Assembly (NCBI GenBank): GCA_038040445.1
Contig: JBBPIG010000001.1
Span: 154,402-218,401, forward strand
Direction of reading: 5' to 3'
From: Acidobacteriota bacterium
Lineage (GTDB): Bacteria; Acidobacteriota; Blastocatellia; UBA7656
Length of the DNA: 64,000 nucleotides
Each line of letters starts with the position of its first letter. Within the stretch, counting starts at the first letter, position 1. The position numbers and the translations under genes were made by a program. Positions 17,441 through 27,969 of the stretch are shown here, piece after piece. The notes below the pieces were generated by a model, which saw only the letters and a list, made by a program, of their open reading frames with translations, was not told where the DNA came from and ran no database searches.

Positions 17441-17686
17441 ATGCACAATGAGTCCACAGCAATCATAGAGCAAGACGAAGACTGGTTCATCGCTTACTGT
17501 CCGGAGATCCCTGGCGCTAACGGACAGGGGCGGACGATCGACGAGTGCCGGAAGAATCTCGCCAAGGCGATTGAACTGATCCTTGAGGACCGCCGAGAAG
17601 ACGCCTTCCGAGGAGTTCCGCCGGATGACATTCGAGAAACGGTCGTCTTGCCATCCGCTGAGCCTGGTGGGAGCATGGGTGCGTGA
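17441..17686 (+). CDS. HicB-family antitoxin-like protein
   Basis: An 81-residue HicB-like protein: a beta start, the DEDWFIAYCPEIPGANGQG core and TIDECRKNLAKAIELILEDR helix of the partial RNase-H-like HicB fold. HicB normally neutralises the mRNA interferase HicA, but no HicA-like frame is next to it. The gene is instead followed by a vapBC-type pair. It lacks the extra C-terminal DNA-binding domain of longer HicB proteins. It may be a solitary antitoxin. Confidence 0.75.
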   Translation: MHNESTAIIEQDEDWFIAYCPEIPGANGQGRTIDECRKNLAKAIELILEDRREDAFRGVPPDDIRETVVLPSAEPGGSMGA

Positions 17687-17696
17687 GGTAACGCAT

Positions 17697-17960
17697 ATGC
17701 AGTCGATTTACAAAGCGATTCTTCGAGGTGATCGAATCGAATGGGACGACGATGTTCCCGAACAGATTCGAACCCAGACAGCACTGACGGTATTCGTAAC
17801 CATTCCGGATCAGCCCGTCGCACCAGACGATACACGGGGGTTGCGCATGGCGGAAGCATTGGAGCGGCTCGCTGCGAATGGTGGCGTTGGCTCCATCACA
17901 GATCCTTCGCAGTGGCAGCGTGAACGCCGCGAGGATCGGGACCTCCCCGGCCGGTCATAA
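17697..17960 (+). CDS. VapB-like antitoxin
   Basis: An 87-residue protein from ATG 17697, preceded by GTGAGG. The N-terminal part (AILRGDRIEWDDDVPEQIR) is a short beta region. The C-terminus, ITDPSQWQRERREDRDLPGR, matches the conserved toxin-wrapping tail seen in antitoxins next to PIN toxins. It ends three bases before the PIN gene, so the two are almost certainly co-translated. The family name is inferred from tail and position. Confidence 0.75.
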   Translation: MQSIYKAILRGDRIEWDDDVPEQIRTQTALTVFVTIPDQPVAPDDTRGLRMAEALERLAANGGVGSITDPSQWQRERREDRDLPGRS

Positions 17961-17963
17961 TAA

Positions 17964-18332
17964 GTGCTACTCGACAGCAACATCATCATCTACGCAGCCC
18001 AGCCGGATCACGAAGATCTCCGGCGATTGATTGCCTCGCAGTCTCCATCGGTTTCCGCGATCAGCGTAGTCGAGGTCCTGGGATACCATCGCCTCTCGGA
18101 GGTTGAACGCACGCACTTCGAGGAATTCTTTGGAGTGTCGAAGATTCTAGCGGTATCGGACCTTGTGATCAGCGAAGCGGTCAGGCTGCGTCAGCAACGG
18201 AAGATGTCCCTCGGCGATGCGCTCATTGGGGCGACGGCCATCGCTAATGATCTGACTCTGGTTACGCGCAACGTAGATGACTTCGACTGGATTGAGGGGC
18301 TTCGTATTCTCAACCCGCTTGCTTCGGCGTAG
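17964..18332 (+). CDS. PIN-domain ribonuclease toxin, VapC-like
   Basis: A 122-residue PIN domain. The acidic catalytic set is visible: Asp4 in LLDSNIIIYA, Glu in ISVVEVLGY, Asp in SLGDALIGATA, and Asp in TRNVDDF. Such toxins cleave RNA and are held inactive by the adjacent antitoxin. The start is GTG 17964 three bases after the antitoxin stop. This is a type II toxin-antitoxin arrangement. Confidence 0.88.
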   Translation: MLLDSNIIIYAAQPDHEDLRRLIASQSPSVSAISVVEVLGYHRLSEVERTHFEEFFGVSKILAVSDLVISEAVRLRQQRKMSLGDALIGATAIANDLTLVTRNVDDFDWIEGLRILNPLASA

Positions 18333-19475: not shown

Positions 19476-19644
19476 GATCTCTCCCTTTCGTGTCGATCTG
19501 TTTGCTGCGTTGCGCATAGCACCGGGTGATCATAGACCGAATCTCGCACGACGCGCCAACGCATCGAGCTTCTTACAGAGGACACATCAGACTCTCGCGC
19601 ATACGCCGCCAGAGACTATGAAATCTCCCCAACGACAGTGACTC

Positions 19645-19919
19645 TGTGAAAACTCCGAGGATGCCACGGGCTTGTCCCGTTGGAGGGTCACGGTGGCTGC
19701 TACACAAGGCCGGGTTGTGGGGGCAAGGATGCCACGGGCTTGCCCCGTGGAGGTTCACGCTCGCTGCTAACCGCCGAATAGCCGTTCCGCCAGACTAGCA
19801 GCCAGCGTGAATCTCCACGGGGCAAGCCCGTGGCATCTCGCGAGTCGCATGTGATCGTTGTAGCGGCCATCGTGAACCTCCAACGGGACAAGCCCGTGGC
19901 ATCCTCGGAGTCTTCACAC
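19645..19919. repeat. Large nested inverted repeat built from a REP-like palindrome
   Basis: Four copies of a core GATGCCACGGGCTTG(T/C)CCCG occur as two forward and two reverse copies in nested order. The outer arms (about 19645-19700 and 19868-19919) match from GTGAAAACTCCGAGG inward, and the inner arms (about 19727-19775 and 19795-19842) pair separately. The core is itself palindromic (CACGGGCTTGCCCCGTG). No ORF is credible inside. The element could be a nonautonomous mobile unit or a REP cluster. Confidence 0.85.
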
Positions 19920-20027
19920 AGTCTCGGTAGAGGGTGGGATTCAGCAAGGCGCTGTTGGTGCGGGCGGTTGCAACGGCTCGGAGGCCTACTATAGAATTCG
20001 CCGCGTCATCACTGCGGAGGAGCACAA

Positions 20028-20989
20028 TGAAAATCGGCATTCTCGTGGGCCGTGAAGGAACTTTTCCTCAGGCTCTCATCAGCGAGATCAACAAACGCAA
20101 CGCCGGCGTCACCGCTGAATACCTCAAGCTCGGCGGTGTGAAGATGGCCGAGCCTTGCCCGTACGACACGATCATCGATCGAATCTCACACGATGTGCCG
20201 TTCTATCGAGCTTACCTCAAGAGCGCAGTGCTCGCAGGCGCCAAGGTCATTAACAATCCTTTCTGGTGGAACGCCGACGATAAGTTTTTCAACTACTCGC
20301 TCGCGACTTATCTTGGCATCGCCGTGCCAAAGACGATTCTGCTGCCGCAGAAGGAATACAAAGAAGGCGTTGTTACCGAGTCGCTCAGGAACCTCGAATA
20401 TCCACTCGATTGGGATGGCATTATCGAGCATGTCGGCTTGCCTGCGTTCATCAAGCCATTCGACGGGGGCGGCTGGCGCGGGGTGTCTCGCGTGAACACT
20501 CGCGAGGAGCTGATGGAAAAATACGACGCCAGCGGGACCGATTGCATGGTGTTGCAAAAGTACGTTCCGTTTACTCACTACGTCAGGTCTTATTGCATCG
20601 GCAAGAAGGAAGTGTGTCCGATGCCTTACGATCCGATCTTCCAACGCTACCTCGTCGTGGACAACTATCTCGATCCCGAAATGGAAGCGCGAGTGCGTCG
20701 CGAGACGATTCAGATCAACGAAGCGCTCGGCTACGACATCAACACCGTCGAGTTTGCGATCGCGAATGGGACGCCTTACGCGATCGACTATATGAATCCC
20801 GCGCCGGATGCGGATTGGTGGTCGGTAGGTTCGATCTACTTTAAATGGATGGTTGAGAAGGTCGCCGATCTGGCGATTGAAACCTCGCTGCACGGAGAGC
20901 CGACGATAAGAAGTCACAGGTGGAATGAGCTTCTGAACCACGAGATCAAACGGCTGAGCGTAAGTAAGCCGGCGGCCGGAGCAGATTAA
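20028..20989 (+). CDS. ATP-grasp ligase
   Basis: A cytoplasmic 320-residue ATP-grasp protein starting at ATG 20028 behind GGAGGAGCAC. The preceding fold is MKIGILVGREGTFP. The ATP-grasp core shows INNPFWWNADDKFFNY, LPAFIKPFDGGGWRGVSRV (ATP-binding lysine and glycine-rich loop), MVLQKYVPFTHYVRSY, and the metal-binding closing acid/Asn pair in VEFAIANGTPYAIDYMNPAPD. Such enzymes join a carboxylate and an amine through an acyl phosphate. It heads a block with two further amide-bond ligases, so it probably makes one bond of a small peptide-like product. The substrate is unknown. Confidence 0.82.
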
Positions 20990-21000
20990 GACGGCGGCGG

Positions 21001-21061
21001 TTCAGAGTACAACCTTCAGGTTGCTGAGTTAACGCTGGCAAGCTAAAGCTTGGACTCTGAA
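21001..21061. repeat. Hairpin element with internal palindromes
   Basis: TTCAGAGT at the left is matched by ACTCTGAA at the right. Two smaller palindromes, AACCTTCAGGTT and AAGCTAAAGCTT, lie between. The element leads directly into the heptad repeat that follows. Confidence 0.65.
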
Positions 21062-21109
21062 CCCGGAACCCTGAACCCGGAACCCTGAACCCGGAACCCT
21101 GAACTCTAG
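21054..21109. repeat. Heptad tandem repeat (ACCCGGA/ACCCTGA)
   Basis: Eight consecutive 7-base units alternate between ACCCGGA and ACCCTGA, bracketed by ACTCTGA and ACTCTAG. This is the most regular heptad array in the window. It lies just before the circularly permuted ATP-grasp gene. Confidence 0.9.
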
Positions 21110-21111
21110 GT

Positions 21112-22449
21112 ATGACCAGTCAAGCAGCCCACGACTACAACTCACTGATCGAGCGCAAGCCGGCGCTGCTCGAAGAATCGCGCGCTTTCCTTGAGCAGCG
21201 ATTGAATGAAGTGCGATTCGTCTTCGGTGGTCGCATGCTTTCTCCCTATCTGCGGCCGCACTTCGTCACGCGCAGCGAATGGCAGCAGATCACAAGAACC
21301 TGTGAGACCGTGTGGAGCGCAATCGAAAAAGTCGGGCGCATCGCACCGGCGAATAAGTTGATGCTCGAGCAGATAGGCCTGACCGAAGGCGAGCGCGAAC
21401 TGGTCGCCGTTGATCCCGGCTATGAAGAAGTTTCGGTCACTTCGCGACTGGATTCTTTTCTGACCGGCGAGACTTACCAGTTTGTCGAGTTGAATGCCGA
21501 GTGCCCGGCAGGAATCGCTTATCAAGACGTGGCAGCGGAGATCTTTTGCGAGCTGCCGTTGATGCGCGAGTTCACGCGGCAGCATTCAGTCACCCCGATG
21601 TATTGCCGGCAGAACATGCTTGAAGCTCTGCTTACGATTTACCAGCGTGTTCGAGGTCGTGGAGAGACGCCTCAGATCGCGATCGTGGATTACAAGGGCT
21701 TGCCGACCCAGCGAGAGTTCGAGCTATTCAAAGAATTCTTTGAGGGTCGCGGTTATTCGACGACGATTGCCGACCCGCGCGATCTGGAGTTGAGGGAAGG
21801 GAAGTTGCACCACGGCGATTTCAAGATCGACCTGGTCTACAGGCGCGCCCTCACGACCGAGCTGCTTGAAAAGATTAATGAATGCCAGGCATTCATCGAG
21901 GCCTACAAAACAGGCGCGGCCGTGTTCGTGAATTCGTTTCGAACCAAATACGTTCACAAGAAAATGCTCTTTGCCGTGCTCACCGATGAACGCCATCAAC
22001 ACTACTTCTCAGAAGCGGAGCAAGAGGCAATTCGCAAGTCCGTGCCGTGGACGCGCAGAGTCGAAGAGGCCAAGACAACTCACAACGGCCAGGAAGTCGA
22101 TCTCCTGGAATTCGTGCGGACCAGGCGAGAGATACTCGTGTTAAAGCCGAACGACGACTACGGCGGGCACGGAATATTCATCGGTTGGGAATCGGATGAA
22201 AGCGCCTGGGAAGCCGCGATAAAGCAAGCGCTCGCTGGCGACTACCTCGCTCAAGAGCGGGTGACTACCTCACGCGAGGTGTTTCCGTTTGTAGACGAGA
22301 GCGGGGTGCATATGATAGAGCAACTGCTCGATCTCGATCCGCTGTTGTTTTTTGGGAAGGTTTCGGGGGCGTTCACGCGGCTGTCATCGTCGTCGCTTGC
22401 GAACGTGACGTCCGGGGCCGGGATGGTCCCGACTATGATCGCCGAGTGA
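21112..22449 (+). CDS. Circularly permuted ATP-grasp / glutathionylspermidine synthase-like ligase
   Basis: A 445-residue protein. The segments VELNAECPAGIAYQD (residues about 125-140), FVNSFRTKYVHKKMLFAVL (about 265-285), EILVLKPNDDYGGHGIFIG (about 340-360) and YLAQERV follow the circularly permuted ATP-grasp order, with the nucleotide lysine in LKPNDDYGG. This group includes glutathionylspermidine synthase-type and COG2308-type ligases that form amide bonds. It is separated from the first ATP-grasp gene by a repeat-filled gap of about 120 bases and followed by the GCS2-like ligase. ATG 21112 is used; its ribosome site is poor and the upstream repeat lies right against it. Confidence 0.8.
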   Translation: MTSQAAHDYNSLIERKPALLEESRAFLEQRLNEVRFVFGGRMLSPYLRPHFVTRSEWQQITRTCETVWSAIEKVGRIAPANKLMLEQIGLTEGERELVAVDPGYEEVSVTSRLDSFLTGETYQFVELNAECPAGIAYQDVAAEIFCELPLMREFTRQHSVTPMYCRQNMLEALLTIYQRVRGRGETPQIAIVDYKGLPTQREFELFKEFFEGRGYSTTIADPRDLELREGKLHHGDFKIDLVYRRALTTELLEKINECQAFIEAYKTGAAVFVNSFRTKYVHKKMLFAVLTDERHQHYFSEAEQEAIRKSVPWTRRVEEAKTTHNGQEVDLLEFVRTRREILVLKPNDDYGGHGIFIGWESDESAWEAAIKQALAGDYLAQERVTTSREVFPFVDESGVHMIEQLLDLDPLLFFGKVSGAFTRLSSSSLANVTSGAGMVPTMIAE

Positions 22450-22553
22450 ATTGCCGATTGTAGATTTCCGATTGGCGATTTCCTGGTGCCGGTTTTGGGG
22501 ATTGCAGATTCGGGCTAGTGCGCGCGCTCCACTAATCGGCAATCGGAAATCCT
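22450..22553. repeat. Heptad repeat (ATTGCCG/ATTTCCG type) with inverted right arm
   Basis: The left arm reads ATTGCCG-ATTGTAG-ATTTCCG-ATTGGCG-ATTTCC, starting right after the stop of the previous gene. The right arm at 22533-22550 is AATCGGCAATCGGAAATC, its reverse complement. The loop contains a further GATTGCAGATT unit. Confidence 0.85.
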
Positions 22554-22562
22554 GGAGTTGTG

Positions 22563-23663
22563 ATGCCTGACTTCACGCTTGGAATCGAAGAAGAGTTTCA
22601 GATCATCGACCCGGTGACCCGCGAGCTGCGTTCGCACATAACCGAGATGATGGAGGAAGGGCGCATGCTCCTGGGCGAGCAGGTGAAGCCCGAAATGCAC
22701 CAGTCGATGATTGAAGTCGGGACTGGCATATGCGCCAACGTTCAAGAAGCGCGCGCGGATGTAATCAAGCTCCGCCGCACGGTCTCCACGCTTGCCCAGA
22801 GCAAAGGGCTTCGCATAGCCGCCGCCTCGACTCATCCGTTTTCGAGCTGGAAGGACCAGAAGATCACTCCTCACGAACACTACGAGGCGCTCATAAGCGA
22901 AATGCAAGTGCTGGCCGAGTCGCTGTTGATCTTCGGGATGCACGTGCACGTCGGCATCGCAGACCGCGAAGCCCAGATACACCTGATGAATGCCGCGCGC
23001 TATTTCTTGCCGCACCTGTTGGCGCTCTCAACAAGCTCGCCGTTTTGGATGGGAACCCAGACAGGTCTGAAGAGCTATCGCTCGGAGATCTTCAAGAAGT
23101 TCCCGCGAACCGACATTCCTGATTATTTCGGTTCGTATTCCGAGTTCGATAACTACGTGAATCTTCTGCTCAAGACAGGGTGCATCGACAAGCCGAAGAA
23201 GATCTGGTGGGACGTACGCCCTCATCCTACCTTCCCAACGTTGGAGTTTCGTATTTGCGATATCCCTTCGCGGGTCGACGAAGTCATCGCGCTGGCGGCG
23301 TTGATTCAGGCGATCGTCGCGAAGCTGTCGAAGCTCTATCGGATGAACATGGGTTTTCGACTTTATCGCCGCGCGCTTATTCAGGAGAACAAATGGCGAG
23401 CGGTGCGATGGGGATTGGATGGCAAGCTGATCGACTTTGGCAAGCAGATCGAAGTTCCAACGCGTGATTTGATTCTTGAGTTGCTCGACTTCGTCGATGA
23501 CGTCGTTGATGAACTGGGAAGCCGCAAGGAGCTTGAGTACATCCACACGATTCTAGAAGGCGGCACCAGTGCCGACCGACAACTAAAGACGTTCTATCAA
23601 GCGGGCGATTTCAATGCAGTGGTTGATCAGTTGATCGCTGAGACAATGGAAGGCGTCAGCTAA
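22563..23663 (+). CDS. Carboxylate-amine ligase, GCS2 (YbdK) family
   Basis: A glutamine-synthetase-fold ligase of the glutamate-cysteine ligase 2 family. The signature MPDFTLGIEEEFQIID opens the protein. VNIHVG-like metal motifs appear as GMHVHVGIADRE around residue 125, and ARYFLPHLLALSTSSPFWMGTQTGLKSYR follows at about 145. DVRPHPTFPTLEFRICD lies near 220. ATG 22563 is used (a GTG directly precedes it). The 366-residue length is normal. YbdK-type enzymes join an amino group to a carboxylate. Here the enzyme is the third ligase in a row, which argues for a multi-step amidoligase pathway, not glutathione synthesis. No glutathione synthetase (gshB) was seen nearby. Confidence 0.88.
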   Translation: MPDFTLGIEEEFQIIDPVTRELRSHITEMMEEGRMLLGEQVKPEMHQSMIEVGTGICANVQEARADVIKLRRTVSTLAQSKGLRIAAASTHPFSSWKDQKITPHEHYEALISEMQVLAESLLIFGMHVHVGIADREAQIHLMNAARYFLPHLLALSTSSPFWMGTQTGLKSYRSEIFKKFPRTDIPDYFGSYSEFDNYVNLLLKTGCIDKPKKIWWDVRPHPTFPTLEFRICDIPSRVDEVIALAALIQAIVAKLSKLYRMNMGFRLYRRALIQENKWRAVRWGLDGKLIDFGKQIEVPTRDLILELLDFVDDVVDELGSRKELEYIHTILEGGTSADRQLKTFYQAGDFNAVVDQLIAETMEGVS

Positions 23664-23830
23664 TCATCGTTGAATAGCTTACCAACAATACCCGCCATTC
23701 CAGCGTTTACGCCTTCTGATCCCCATCTCGAATTCGCAGTGAAATTCTTCTACGCTCGCGGAGTCCGGTTTGCTAACACAAGGTGTTTGCCTCTTGCGCA
23801 GAGAAATAGTTCGACGTGATGAGGAGCGAT

Positions 23831-24883
23831 ATGAACAGTGATCGGGAGCGAGATGAGATGCAAGAAGATCCATTGGCTTCGAAGGAAGAAAAGCAGCATC
23901 ACTGGGACGAAGTTCACCCTACCGCTCAACAAACAGCTCGGCACGCTCCCTCGCGTGGCCCGACAAGTTGGAGAGCGCGATTCGCAATGCACCGCGGTCT
24001 GTCTGCCGCGATCATTCTCGCCGGCTTGGTAGTGGCCGCCGTCGCAGCATACCTCGTCCTCGGCCGCTCGAGCCCGACTCCTGCTCAGCCGTCGAAGCCC
24101 GCCTCACCTCCTGCATCACAGGCCGCGCCTGCGCCAATTGCGCAACCGCCCGAAAAAGGGGCCGAGTCAGGGCTACTGGGTCTATTCGGCGCGCCGGCTT
24201 CAGAGCAAGAGAAGGAGCCCTGGCTGACGGCGGCCGCAAGGATCACGCTGAAGCTCGCGCTCGCATCGCTGCTGGCGGCATTGCTTGCGTTCAGGCCGCG
24301 GCGAAACTCGCCCCTTACCATGCGAAATCCTTACGTCGCCCAAACCCAGATACTGCTTGCCATAGTTGCCGCGGCGCTGATGATGGTAGTTTCTGACAAT
24401 GCGGCTCGCGCGTTCGGAATCTTCGCGGCCGCTTCGCTAGTCAGGTTTCGAACGAACATCCGTGACCCGAAGGAGATCACCGTCTTACTGATCAGCCTCG
24501 CAATAGGACTGGGCTGCGGTGTTGGAAAGATCGAGGTAGCGATCATTCTCTCGCTGTTCTCACTTCTGGTGGTGTCGCTGCTCGAATACTACGAACCCGA
24601 ACAGGTCTTTCGCGCGATGGAACTGACCGTTACAACCCGTAAGGTCGAAGAGACCGATGAGGTGCTTAAGGAGATATTCGAGAAGCGAAACATGACCAGC
24701 GAACTAAGGAAGGTCGATCGCGAGGATCCCGACGATCCTATGGGAAAGATCGTCTACTTCGTGAACGTCCCCGGGGACCTCGGCACCGATAAGCTCAGTG
24801 AAGAGATCTTCACATCTGATCCGGATAACATAGACTCCGTTCAGTGGGACCAAAAGAAAACCAGTTCATACATCTATCGCTAG
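23831..24883 (+). CDS. DUF4956-like multi-pass membrane protein
   Basis: The start ATG 23831 is six bases after GAGG; two earlier starts (23816, 23819) lack such a site. About 50 charged residues precede a membrane helix (AAIILAGLVVAAVAAYLVL). A Pro/Ala/Ser-rich linker follows, then four more hydrophobic helices. The conserved block AFGIFAAASLVRFRTNIRDPKEITVLL identifies the DUF4956 type, which resembles MgtC/SapB membrane proteins. The cytosolic C-terminal 120 residues have an ACT-like look (TVTTRKVEETDEVLKEIF). It follows the ligase genes by 170 bases and may be part of the same unit, perhaps handling the product. This link is inferred. Confidence 0.7.
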   Translation: MNSDRERDEMQEDPLASKEEKQHHWDEVHPTAQQTARHAPSRGPTSWRARFAMHRGLSAAIILAGLVVAAVAAYLVLGRSSPTPAQPSKPASPPASQAAPAPIAQPPEKGAESGLLGLFGAPASEQEKEPWLTAAARITLKLALASLLAALLAFRPRRNSPLTMRNPYVAQTQILLAIVAAALMMVVSDNAARAFGIFAAASLVRFRTNIRDPKEITVLLISLAIGLGCGVGKIEVAIILSLFSLLVVSLLEYYEPEQVFRAMELTVTTRKVEETDEVLKEIFEKRNMTSELRKVDREDPDDPMGKIVYFVNVPGDLGTDKLSEEIFTSDPDNIDSVQWDQKKTSSYIYR

Positions 24884-24890
24884 CGTTCAC

Positions 24891-25013
24891 AGTTCCGGGT
24901 TCGTGGTTCCGGGTTCGGGGTTCGTAGTTTCAATTTTAAGCCGCTCTACGTCCCGACTAAGTGAACAGGACTCTCAAACCCGGAGCCCGGAACCCTGAAC
25001 CCGGAACTCTGAA
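24891..25013. repeat. Heptad repeat (TTCCGGG / CCCGGAA), inverted arms
   Basis: The left arm is TTCCGGG-TTCGTGG-TTCCGGG-TTCGGGG-TTCGTAG. The right arm, 60 bases later, is CCCGGAG-CCCGGAA-CCCTGAA-CCCGGAA-CTCTGAA. The right arm uses the same units as the array at 21054. Together the arms can pair over about 35 bases. The rest of the gap up to 25179 shows no gene. Confidence 0.88.
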
Positions 25014-25179
25014 ATCGTTGGTGTAGATCGTTCAGCTATTGAAGGTGCTGTATGGTTCGCATCCATGCGAACAAAATAGGAATTGTCCTTAGTGTTCCCT
25101 TTCTCTTTTCCTGACGCCACTTAGTATCGCGGTGACGAATCCACGATAGCTGGCATTCGCCTTGCCCTTTCGCAAGAAC

Positions 25180-27969
25180 ATGAGCTCAGCAATTGACGTC
25201 CAGCCAGTGAAGGGCGCAAAGCGACGACCTAAGACCGTAGTTCTGCGTGACTCCCCTTATCCGGCTCGTCGCTCGTTTAAGGATAGACTCTTTGAGATAC
25301 TGAATCCCGTACTCGACAGGGTGAGACCGTATGCGACTCCTCTGGCTAAGCCACGAACGCTTATCATCCTAAGCGTTCTCGCCGGCGCGCTCCTCGTCGG
25401 GGCGATCTATTACTACAACAAGCTGGCGACCGAGATCGATGCCCGGCTTCAGGGCAGTTCGCTAGATAATTCGGTTGGAATCTTCACCGCGCCTCTTAAG
25501 CTTTCGATCGGAGACCGCTTGCCCGTCGATCAGTTGACCACCTACCTCGGCACGGTTGGATATCAGCAGCGGTCGGCCGGTGAAGAAAACGTCGTCGGGT
25601 CTTTCGAAATCGATGGCAACGCGATACTAGTATTCCCGGGGGAAGCGGCCTCGCCGGGTCTTAATCCTGTGCGAATTCAGGAAGACAAGAACGGGCGCAT
25701 TGTGTCCCTGACGAGTCCGCTGACGGGTGAGCGGCTAACATCGGCAAGCATCCAGGGTGAGTTACTAGCAATGGTCCGGGACGGCGACCGTCGAAAGAAG
25801 ATAGCCGTGCAGTTTTCTGATATCCCTGAAAACCTACGAAGTGCAATCCTTGCGACGGAAGACCGCCGATTCTTCAGTCACAACGGTATCGACTGGCGTG
25901 GCATCCTTCGGGCGCTGAAGGCCGACCTGGATAACGGTGGGGTTGTTCAGGGCGGCTCGACGCTTACGCAGCAACTCATCAAGAACGATTTCCTGACTGC
26001 CGACCGGACCCTGAGTCGAAAGCTGAAAGAAGCCGCGATGGCGATCATCCTGGAATCGCGGCTCTCGAAGCAGGAGATATTCACTCTATACTGCAATGAT
26101 GTGTACCTCGGACAGAGCGGTACTTTCGCAATAAACGGGTTCGCCCAGGCCGCACAGGTTTATTTCGACAAGGACCTTGGCGATCTGACGCTTGGAGAGA
26201 CAGCGTTTCTCGCGGGCTTAATTTGCGGGCCAAATAGATACTCGGCGCATCGGGATCAAGCGCGCGCATTGGAGAGGCGCAACATAGTTCTCGACGCGAT
26301 GGTGGATACGGACGCGATCACCCCCGAAGTAGCCGCGTCAGCGAAGAGCGAGCCGCTTCAGATCAAGAAGCACGAGATTCAGAATGATTCCGGCACGAGC
26401 TACTTCATCGACTATGTGCAGAGATTTGCAGACGACCGGCTCGGACCGCACCGCATGTCGTCTCAGCAGCGACTCACGACGACGCTGGACCCTCGGCTCC
26501 AGCGTGCGGCTTATGGAGCCGTCACGAGACAAACGGAAAAACTGGATAAGATCTTCTCCCGCACGGCTCGAAAGGGGCAGGTTCCCCAGCAAGTACAAGG
26601 AGCGCTCGTTGCCCTGGACGCGCACACCGGTGAGGTGCTCGCGATGGTTGGAGGGCGCAGCTACGACGAGAGCCAACTCAATCGCGCGACCGATGCGAAG
26701 CGCCAGCCCGGTTCTGCGTTCAAGCCTTTTGTTTATGCGACGGCGCTTAGCACCCGTTCATATACAGCGGCGAGTCTGATTTCAGACACGCCTCAGACGT
26801 TTACGTACGATGGCGGGAGGAAAGAGTATAAGCCGAGCAATTATCATGGCGGCTTTACGAATCGAAACGTGACCCTGCGCGAAGCCTTGAGGCGTTCGCT
26901 TAACGTCCCGGCGGTCGCGCTTGCGATGAGCGTCGGGCTTAGCCAGGTTGCCGATGTGGCTGAGAAAAGCGGGCTGGATAGGCCGCGGGTATATCCTTCG
27001 ATGGCGTTGGGCACAAGCGAGGTCTCGCCGATCGAGTTGGCAGCCGCGTATACGGCCTTTGCGAACGAAGGTACGGCCCTTAGACCGATTCCGATCAAGA
27101 GCATCAGTCGCGGTGATAAGGTCGGAACAACCGAACTTCTTCAAGCCTACCGCGTGAGCGTTTTCTCACCACAGGTCGCTTACTTGATGACCAACCTATT
27201 GCAGTCGGTCGTTGATGAAGGAACTGCATCGAGGCTCCGCGCAATGGGGCTAAAGGGCGCAATAGCTGGAAAGACCGGCACGACTAGCGATGGTTGGTTC
27301 GTCGGCTACACACCCAGGATTGTTTGCGTTGCGTGGTTGGGATTCGACGATAACACCGATCTTCGACTGAAAGCATCAGAAGCGGCGGTTCCAATGTGGG
27401 CTGATTTCATGAAACAGGCTCTCGATCTTCGTCCTGAGCTTGGCGGCGATTCGTTTGCCAAACCTGGCGGAATTGTCACTGTGGAGATCGACCCGGCGAC
27501 AGGTTGTCTCGCAGGCCCTGATTCTCTTTCGCGCAGACCCGAAGTATTCATCGCGGGTACCGAGCCATATTCCAATTGCTCGCAGGAGTTGATAGCCGAG
27601 GCGTCGGTCGATGAGACCCTCGATGAGCCCATGGACGAGCAAGGACCGCGCGACCACCTGGGATCGGAGACCGAGGCGGAATTCCGTGATTACGACAAGA
27701 TCCAACTTGAAGTCTGCGCCGACACCGGTTTGCTGGCTTCGCCCGAGTGCCCCCGAACCCAGAAGCGGACGTTTGATCTCAGCAGGGAGCCACGCGACAT
27801 GTGCAGCAGCGAGCTGCACGGCAGGACGACCCGTAGACAGCCGCCTGCAACCGAGCCGGTCGGCGACCCTGAAACAGGCGCCGACAACCGAACTGGAACA
27901 AATCCCTGGCTTCGCGTAAGACCCGTTGAGAAAAAGGCGCGAAACCGAAATGGCAATCCAATGTTCTAG
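25180..27969 (+). CDS. Bifunctional class A penicillin-binding protein, PBP1B-like
   Basis: An inner-membrane glycosyltransferase/transpeptidase of 929 residues that polymerises and crosslinks peptidoglycan. One membrane helix lies at about 61-79. A UB2H-like domain follows (SIGDRLPVDQLTTYLGTVGY). The GT51 motifs are EDRRFF, GGSTLTQQLIKN and LSKQEIFTLYCNDVYLGQ. The transpeptidase motifs are the nucleophile serine in RQPGSAFKPF, SLNVP and KTGTT. The long C-terminus has paired cysteines (ATGCLAG, SNCSQEL, VCADTGLLASPEC, DMCSSEL) and a disordered tail. ATG 25180 is preferred over TTG 25162. Its promoter is not evident in the repeat-filled upstream gap. Confidence 0.93.
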   Translation: MSSAIDVQPVKGAKRRPKTVVLRDSPYPARRSFKDRLFEILNPVLDRVRPYATPLAKPRTLIILSVLAGALLVGAIYYYNKLATEIDARLQGSSLDNSVGIFTAPLKLSIGDRLPVDQLTTYLGTVGYQQRSAGEENVVGSFEIDGNAILVFPGEAASPGLNPVRIQEDKNGRIVSLTSPLTGERLTSASIQGELLAMVRDGDRRKKIAVQFSDIPENLRSAILATEDRRFFSHNGIDWRGILRALKADLDNGGVVQGGSTLTQQLIKNDFLTADRTLSRKLKEAAMAIILESRLSKQEIFTLYCNDVYLGQSGTFAINGFAQAAQVYFDKDLGDLTLGETAFLAGLICGPNRYSAHRDQARALERRNIVLDAMVDTDAITPEVAASAKSEPLQIKKHEIQNDSGTSYFIDYVQRFADDRLGPHRMSSQQRLTTTLDPRLQRAAYGAVTRQTEKLDKIFSRTARKGQVPQQVQGALVALDAHTGEVLAMVGGRSYDESQLNRATDAKRQPGSAFKPFVYATALSTRSYTAASLISDTPQTFTYDGGRKEYKPSNYHGGFTNRNVTLREALRRSLNVPAVALAMSVGLSQVADVAEKSGLDRPRVYPSMALGTSEVSPIELAAAYTAFANEGTALRPIPIKSISRGDKVGTTELLQAYRVSVFSPQVAYLMTNLLQSVVDEGTASRLRAMGLKGAIAGKTGTTSDGWFVGYTPRIVCVAWLGFDDNTDLRLKASEAAVPMWADFMKQALDLRPELGGDSFAKPGGIVTVEIDPATGCLAGPDSLSRRPEVFIAGTEPYSNCSQELIAEASVDETLDEPMDEQGPRDHLGSETEAEFRDYDKIQLEVCADTGLLASPECPRTQKRTFDLSREPRDMCSSELHGRTTRRQPPATEPVGDPETGADNRTGTNPWLRVRPVEKKARNRNGNPMF

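Follow-up and report, generated by a model that had tools for sequence, protein, structure and literature searches.

In a 64,000-nucleotide stretch of DNA from an acidobacterium of the class Blastocatellia (the window), three genes for unlike amide-bond-forming ligases lie one after another on the + strand. These genes probably form a conserved unit that builds one small non-ribosomal pseudopeptide, free of a template, by successive ATP-dependent ligations. Because many relatives, and members of a second phylum too, carry the trio in unchanged order, one shared small peptide-like product is probable, and it would most likely be a small pseudopeptide of the gamma-glutamyl type. Re-reading of the open reading frames (ORFs) placed four of them, collinear on the + strand, where the original prediction made from this sequence had put them: an ATP-grasp ligase, a circularly permuted (CP) ATP-grasp ligase, a GCS2 ligase and a DUF4956 protein. 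The three ligases are:

20027..20989, + strand: RimK-fold ATP-grasp ligase, 320 aa, ATG at 20027 (start at 19934 in the mechanical ORF list)
21112..22449, + strand: CP ATP-grasp ligase of the glutathione synthetase/glutathionylspermidine synthetase/YgiC fold, 445 aa
22563..23663, + strand: GCS2/YbdK-type carboxylate-amine ligase of the PRK13515 group, ATG at 22563 or GTG at 22560

A Shine-Dalgarno-like GGAGGAG is found shortly 5' of the ATG of the first gene.

Conserved order and co-inheritance of the ligases

Within the order, the CP ATP-grasp was present in seven of the eight genomes searched, and each of these seven (the window genome, G000, and L041-L046) has the trio in the same order and on the same strand. 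L047-L051, relatives within the class, and the more distant L065 share this arrangement. For the phylum we used a sample of 199 acidobacterial genomes, counted as genomes and not as independent lineages; in nine of them, from four families (f1, f4, f5, f15), one strand holds all three genes within 7 kb. In the groundwater acidobacterium L119 an amidotransferase-like gene comes after the three ligases. When named genomes were scanned, the trio was also recovered in Candidatus Obscuribacterales contigs (L087, L089, L096, L121) and in L088, which is labelled Proteobacteria but groups with the Obscuribacterales sets in trees. The linkage exceeds what chance would give, as order and strand recur beyond the family and in a second phylum as well. 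The original prediction's view of the three ligases as one unit stands, and the objection raised with it, that linkage might not be conserved in relatives, falls.

The ligases are also co-inherited. The three protein trees agree (correlation of patristic distances, r 0.71-0.89), the Obscuribacterales sets make up one clade in each of them, and in a concatenated tree of the three ligases, rooted by midpoint, this clade is nested among acidobacterial sets. The simplest reading of these trees is that the trio is inherited as one block and was also transferred as one. No plasmid match was found for the first ATP-grasp, and those of the CP ATP-grasp and GCS2 were distant only.

Co-occurrence was regular in the 199-genome sample. 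The first ATP-grasp is encoded in 29 of the 30 CP-bearing genomes and GCS2 in 25 of the 30, and the ATP-grasp gene adjoins that of GCS2 in 24 genomes. The most consistent partner of the ligases was an alpha/beta-hydrolase, which the original prediction had missed. Fifty-six genomes have both the ATP-grasp and the hydrolase, while three and two have one alone, and in 24 genomes the two genes lie no more than 2 kb from each other. In four of five Obscuribacterales-type contigs the hydrolase heads the trio, L096 being the exception. The p-values of co-occurrence overstate significance because species are not independent. From this near-constant co-occurrence, set against the less regular occurrence of CP and GCS2, we place the core in the ATP-grasp plus the hydrolase, with GCS2 and CP as frequent additions.

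Several observations weigh against a fixed three-ligase unit. Relatives resembling Pyrinomonadaceae have the trio partly or wholly dispersed, many acidobacterial families pair only the ATP-grasp with GCS2, and GCS2 was not found in five CP-bearing genomes of the sample. These ATP-grasp/GCS2-only pairs and CP genomes lacking GCS2 indicate that neither CP nor GCS2 is obligate, each being an optional module.

Folds and conserved motifs

The AlphaFold model of the first ligase (predicted local distance difference test, pLDDT, 88) superposed on RimK with Z 23.2 and a root-mean-square deviation of 2.7 over 261 aligned residues, and on LysX/ArgX with Z 22. Its best family profile was rimK_fam (TIGR00768), at 35.7 bits and below the cut-off of 143.4 (profile cut-offs are curated or gathering bit scores throughout); by this score it is not a member of the RimK family, though the RimK fold is shared (Z 23). 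Pfam CPSase_L_D2 was matched at 20.2 bits, just above 19.8. Both the KP..GGGW motif of the P-loop region and the C-terminal D-F/Y-M-N-P motif (DFMNP) are nearly invariant in 27 homologues.

The middle ligase is predicted from its model (pLDDT 92) to be a full-length circularly permuted ATP-grasp of the glutathione synthetase/GspS/YgiC fold, with R-x-D and E-x-N motifs. The model superposed over its full length on YgiC, YjfC, GspS and glutathione synthetase (Z 27-32, 353-417 residues). Z was 31.7 for YgiC, 31-32 for YjfC, 29.8 for GspS and 29.1 for human glutathione synthetase, 29-30 for plant and human glutathione synthetases (28-30 for eukaryotic ones overall) and 26-27 for trypanothione synthetase, against only 8-9 for non-permuted ATP-grasps. 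Since eukaryotic glutathione synthetases fit about equally well, the fold cannot choose between an amine and an amino acid as acceptor. Family profiles placed the protein marginally above the cut-off of CP_ATPgrasp_1 (PF04174; 24.0 against 23.1 bits) and below that of CP_ATPgrasp_2 (27.7 against 32), while GSP_synth (PF03738) had no match in the window genome, although the CP ligase is encoded there, or in family relatives.

R112-x-D114 and E126-x-N128 are invariant in 20 CP homologues. An hhalign alignment (probability 80, E 1.3e-5) pairs these four residues with the R-x-D and E-x-N motifs that are invariant in GspS, YgiC and YjfC of E. coli. The aligned GspS positions, numbered from the gss gene, are R316, D318, E330 and N332, which we take to be the catalytic arginine and the magnesium ligands. 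The lysine motifs KPND-YGG and HKK are likewise conserved in the 20 homologues and, judged by their pattern, may be equivalent to GspS K533 and K498. At L060:6789-12885 and L071:8176-13989, two different CP ATP-grasps flank a 705-aa protein that, by eye, is TPR/thioredoxin-like.

The third ligase is clearly a GCS2 enzyme. It reached 216 bits with the Pfam GCS2 profile and exceeded the curated cut-offs of NF010039/PRK13515 (552 against 371 bits) and TIGR02050 (314 against 176 bits); the YbdK structures 1r8g and 1tt4 were matched with E of about 1e-50. The motifs GIEEE and HVHVG are kept in 21 homologues. At three Pyrinomonadaceae-like loci (L052:6437-7310, L055:8258-8750, L056:8727-9071) a short protein, PilZ-like by eye, adjoins GCS2, as does a protein of 177-186 aa without Pfam match; both genes sit between those of GCS2 and CP where both ligases are present.

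The likely product and the alternatives

We infer a single product molecule, and likewise the sequence of the three ligations and their substrates as given here. GCS2 would activate a glutamate-type gamma-carboxylate and couple an amino acid or amine to it, giving a gamma-glutamyl amide. The CP ATP-grasp would then activate the carboxylate of this new product and add an amino acid or (poly)amine, in the manner of glutathione synthetase, the peptide-spermidine ligases YgiC/YjfC and the fungal E-64 ligase Cp1B, and the RimK-fold ATP-grasp could add a further residue, perhaps glutamate. A probable role of the alpha/beta-hydrolase is in trimming, release or recycling of the product. Assembly without a template fits the conserved order of the ligases together with the lack of a carrier protein, of non-ribosomal peptide synthetase (NRPS) genes and of a conserved precursor ORF. 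As originally predicted, no NRPS genes were found beside the ligases when the flanking genes were read. No LysW-like carrier gene was seen there either, though no search aimed directly at LysW was made.

The alternative that fares best, though somewhat unlikely in our judgement, is a conjugate resembling glutathionylspermidine or trypanothione, in which GCS2 makes gamma-Glu-X, the second ligase a tripeptide and the CP ligase a polyamine cap. The three enzyme types do parallel GshA, GshB and GspS, the CP model fits YgiC, GspS and trypanothione synthetase over its full length (Z 26-32, against the 8-9 of non-permuted enzymes), and the R/D/E/N catalytic set is common to CP and GspS/YgiC/YjfC. However, the eukaryotic glutathione synthetases that match CP about equally (Z 28-30) add glycine or beta-alanine, CP lies outside the GSP_synth family with no match in the window genome, and the spermidine-binding residues of the GspS family could not be mapped reliably onto it.

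It is unlikely that the ligases instead modify a protein or a ribosomal precursor peptide, by tagging or in the manner of a graspetide-type RiPP (ribosomally synthesized and post-translationally modified peptide). RimK, the nearest fold to the first ligase, is itself an enzyme that attaches glutamates to a protein of the ribosome, and some circularly permuted ATP-grasps have been proposed from comparative genomics as parts of tagging systems. Yet no small conserved ORF was seen between or beside the ligases in the relatives inspected, some of which leave no room for one, and GCS2 falls in the small-molecule YbdK group, not in the Pup-ligase group. No transglutaminase, alpha-E or proteasome-like gene adjoins the ligases in the window, and the partners in the predicted CP ATP-grasp tagging system (alpha-E, transglutaminase, Ntn-hydrolase) were not among the window's flanking genes or the recurrent neighbours tested.

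The idea that the set makes the main low-molecular-weight thiol in place of glutathione is very improbable. We found no match to GSH-S_ATP (PF02955) in the window genome or the five closest relatives tested, all of its family, although controls were detected; this agrees with the original prediction of a set without glutathione synthesis, and GCS2 enzymes can be gamma-Glu-Cys ligases. On the other hand, BshC, the last enzyme of bacillithiol synthesis, was matched above its cut-off in all ten genomes tested, so that a thiol cofactor is already supplied, and YbdK-type enzymes have weak gamma-Glu-Cys ligase activity, which counts against a thiol role. The lack of GSH-S_ATP and GSP_synth matches, together with a BshC that points to bacillithiol, thus makes a main-thiol role unlikely; canonical glutathione synthesis by GshA plus GshB was itself excluded, there being neither a GSH-S_ATP nor a GSP_synth match while BshC is present. 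Separate roles for three ligases that are neighbours by an accident of genome organisation are the least credible explanation, since the dispersal of the genes in some class relatives is outweighed by the agreement of the trees and by an order and strand that hold in four families and also outside the phylum, a conserved linkage which already contradicts accident.

The reading of the trio as a unit for one template-free pseudopeptide can be extended, tentatively and as a possibility on the doubtful side. A hitherto undescribed pathway of four enzymes, the three ligases plus the hydrolase, common to Acidobacteriota and Obscuribacterales and passed between them as a unit, might make a new gamma-glutamyl peptidyl-amine, functionally akin to glutathionylspermidine, in bacteria that lack the canonical route to glutathione. 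Blastocatellia are common in soil, and few of their metabolites have been characterised. A compact trio of stand-alone ligases with conserved linkage and a short list of candidate partners could yield small peptides of a new class or biocatalysts of use in ligation.

Neighbouring genes, repeats and related systems

A Pfam scan of the window's flanking genes gave DUF4412, DUF4956, PBP1A and M48. The DUF4956 domain scored 45.8 bits against a cut-off of 30.6, and the genes for a PBP1A-type penicillin-binding protein and an M48 peptidase lie 3' of it. DUF4956 and PBP1A occupy 23816-27969, between GCS2 and the M48 gene, in this genome only. In G004, of the same genus, the GCS2 stop codon is followed after ~130 bp by the M48 peptidase gene, and in three other genera of the family GCS2 is likewise followed by M48 with neither DUF4956 nor PBP1A between. 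Homologues of DUF4956 elsewhere in the phylum are not linked to the ligases (on another contig in G003, ~410 kb off in G031). The DUF4956 protein had been suggested to export or sense the product, but it is missing at the locus in every other family genome read. Because four family members have GCS2 and then directly M48, and homologues elsewhere are unlinked, DUF4956 was ruled out as a pathway member. Most simply, the window lineage would have gained DUF4956 and PBP1A between GCS2 and M48, and both are chance neighbours of the ligases. The gene list is thereby revised, with the DUF4956 membrane protein out and the alpha/beta-hydrolase in.

The hydrolase homologue of the window genome is not linked to the ligases; it lies on another stretch, contig C5:52416-53123, and carries the nucleophile motif GASLG. 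Its neighbours there are a short-chain dehydrogenase, an amino-acid permease and an amidohydrolase, and in relatives nuclease-like, response regulator, AMP-binding and aldehyde dehydrogenase genes, so that the neighbourhoods gave no consistent hint of a substrate in the window genome or relatives. Occasional neighbours of the set in relatives are a type-1 amidotransferase-like protein, an M29-type peptidase and a PGM1/BesA-like ATP-grasp ligase, all typical of peptide ligation or turnover. A type-1 glutamine amidotransferase, named in the original prediction, is lacking in the window genome and the class sample, though a few distant relatives have it as the downstream neighbour. Of the 199 genomes 13 have it, the listed Blastocatellia not being among them, so we regard it as optional, and it was rejected as a required partner. 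At L176:8566-17361 a distant ATP-grasp/hydrolase pair lies in a run of genes with another ATP-grasp and glycosyltransferase-like proteins, which hints at a surface-polymer version of the set.

The spacers between the ligase genes are 111-123 nt long here and carry interspersed repeats. The description of them as only repeat DNA was roughly right, as both hold repeats, but the repeat of the first spacer occurs genome-wide. The 14-nt unit GAACCCGGAACCCT forms direct or short tandem repeats at 20990-21111 and 24886-25013, in both orientations, flanking the ligase block. A 19-mer of this repeat has 26 copies in the genome, 13 per strand and some adjoining, and none in a reversed control; being interspersed genome-wide, the repeat is not a feature of the cluster and was rejected as a component of it. 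The second spacer (22450-22559) holds an 18-nt inverted repeat. Nested inverted repeats with GGATGCCACGGGCTTG lie 5' of the ATP-grasp gene at 19622-19941 (83-nt arms 86% complementary, 42-nt arms 95%) and resemble an interspersed element of the repetitive extragenic palindromic (REP) type. At 17583-18332 two adjoining small genes have translations that, by eye, resemble an antitoxin and a VapC-like toxin with a PIN domain. Promoter and terminator scans gave about background level.

Iyer, Abhiman, Burroughs and Aravind reportedly surveyed amidoligase gene neighbourhoods in Mol BioSyst in 2009. Our literature search, which did not extend to that survey, found no description of a set of RimK-fold, CP glutathione synthetase/GspS-fold and PRK13515-type GCS2 ligases with a hydrolase. 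The first ligase has its closest solved folds in RimK, LysX and ArgX (Z 22-23) but, at 35.7 bits, falls far short of the 143.4 bits required for the RimK family. The GCS2 of the window belongs to the same family as E. coli YbdK (E about 1e-50) and differs from it in its PRK13515 group (552 bits) and in its linkage to two other ligases.

The CP ligase shares with E. coli YgiC, YjfC and GspS the full-length fold (Z 30-32) and the R/D/E/N catalytic set, but it is only about 11-14% identical to them and outside GSP_synth, and GspS has an extra amidase domain that CP lacks. To our knowledge, none of these three enzymes is encoded beside GCS2 and a RimK-fold ligase. YgiC and YjfC are peptide-spermidine ligases, as cited in PMC12568646. 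The same source reports that Cp1B makes a pseudodipeptide in the NRPS-independent biosynthesis of E-64 (PMC12568646); this fungal enzyme is, like CP, a stand-alone ligase of the same fold (9cjn, Z 26), with other partner enzymes and another starting acid. Operons with several unlike ATP-grasp and GCS/COOH-NH2 ligases, predicted to carry out successive peptide ligations, are an established theme (PMC4431377, which cites the 2009 survey), and the present set resembles such amidoligase neighbourhoods in likewise linking different ATP-grasp and GCS ligases.

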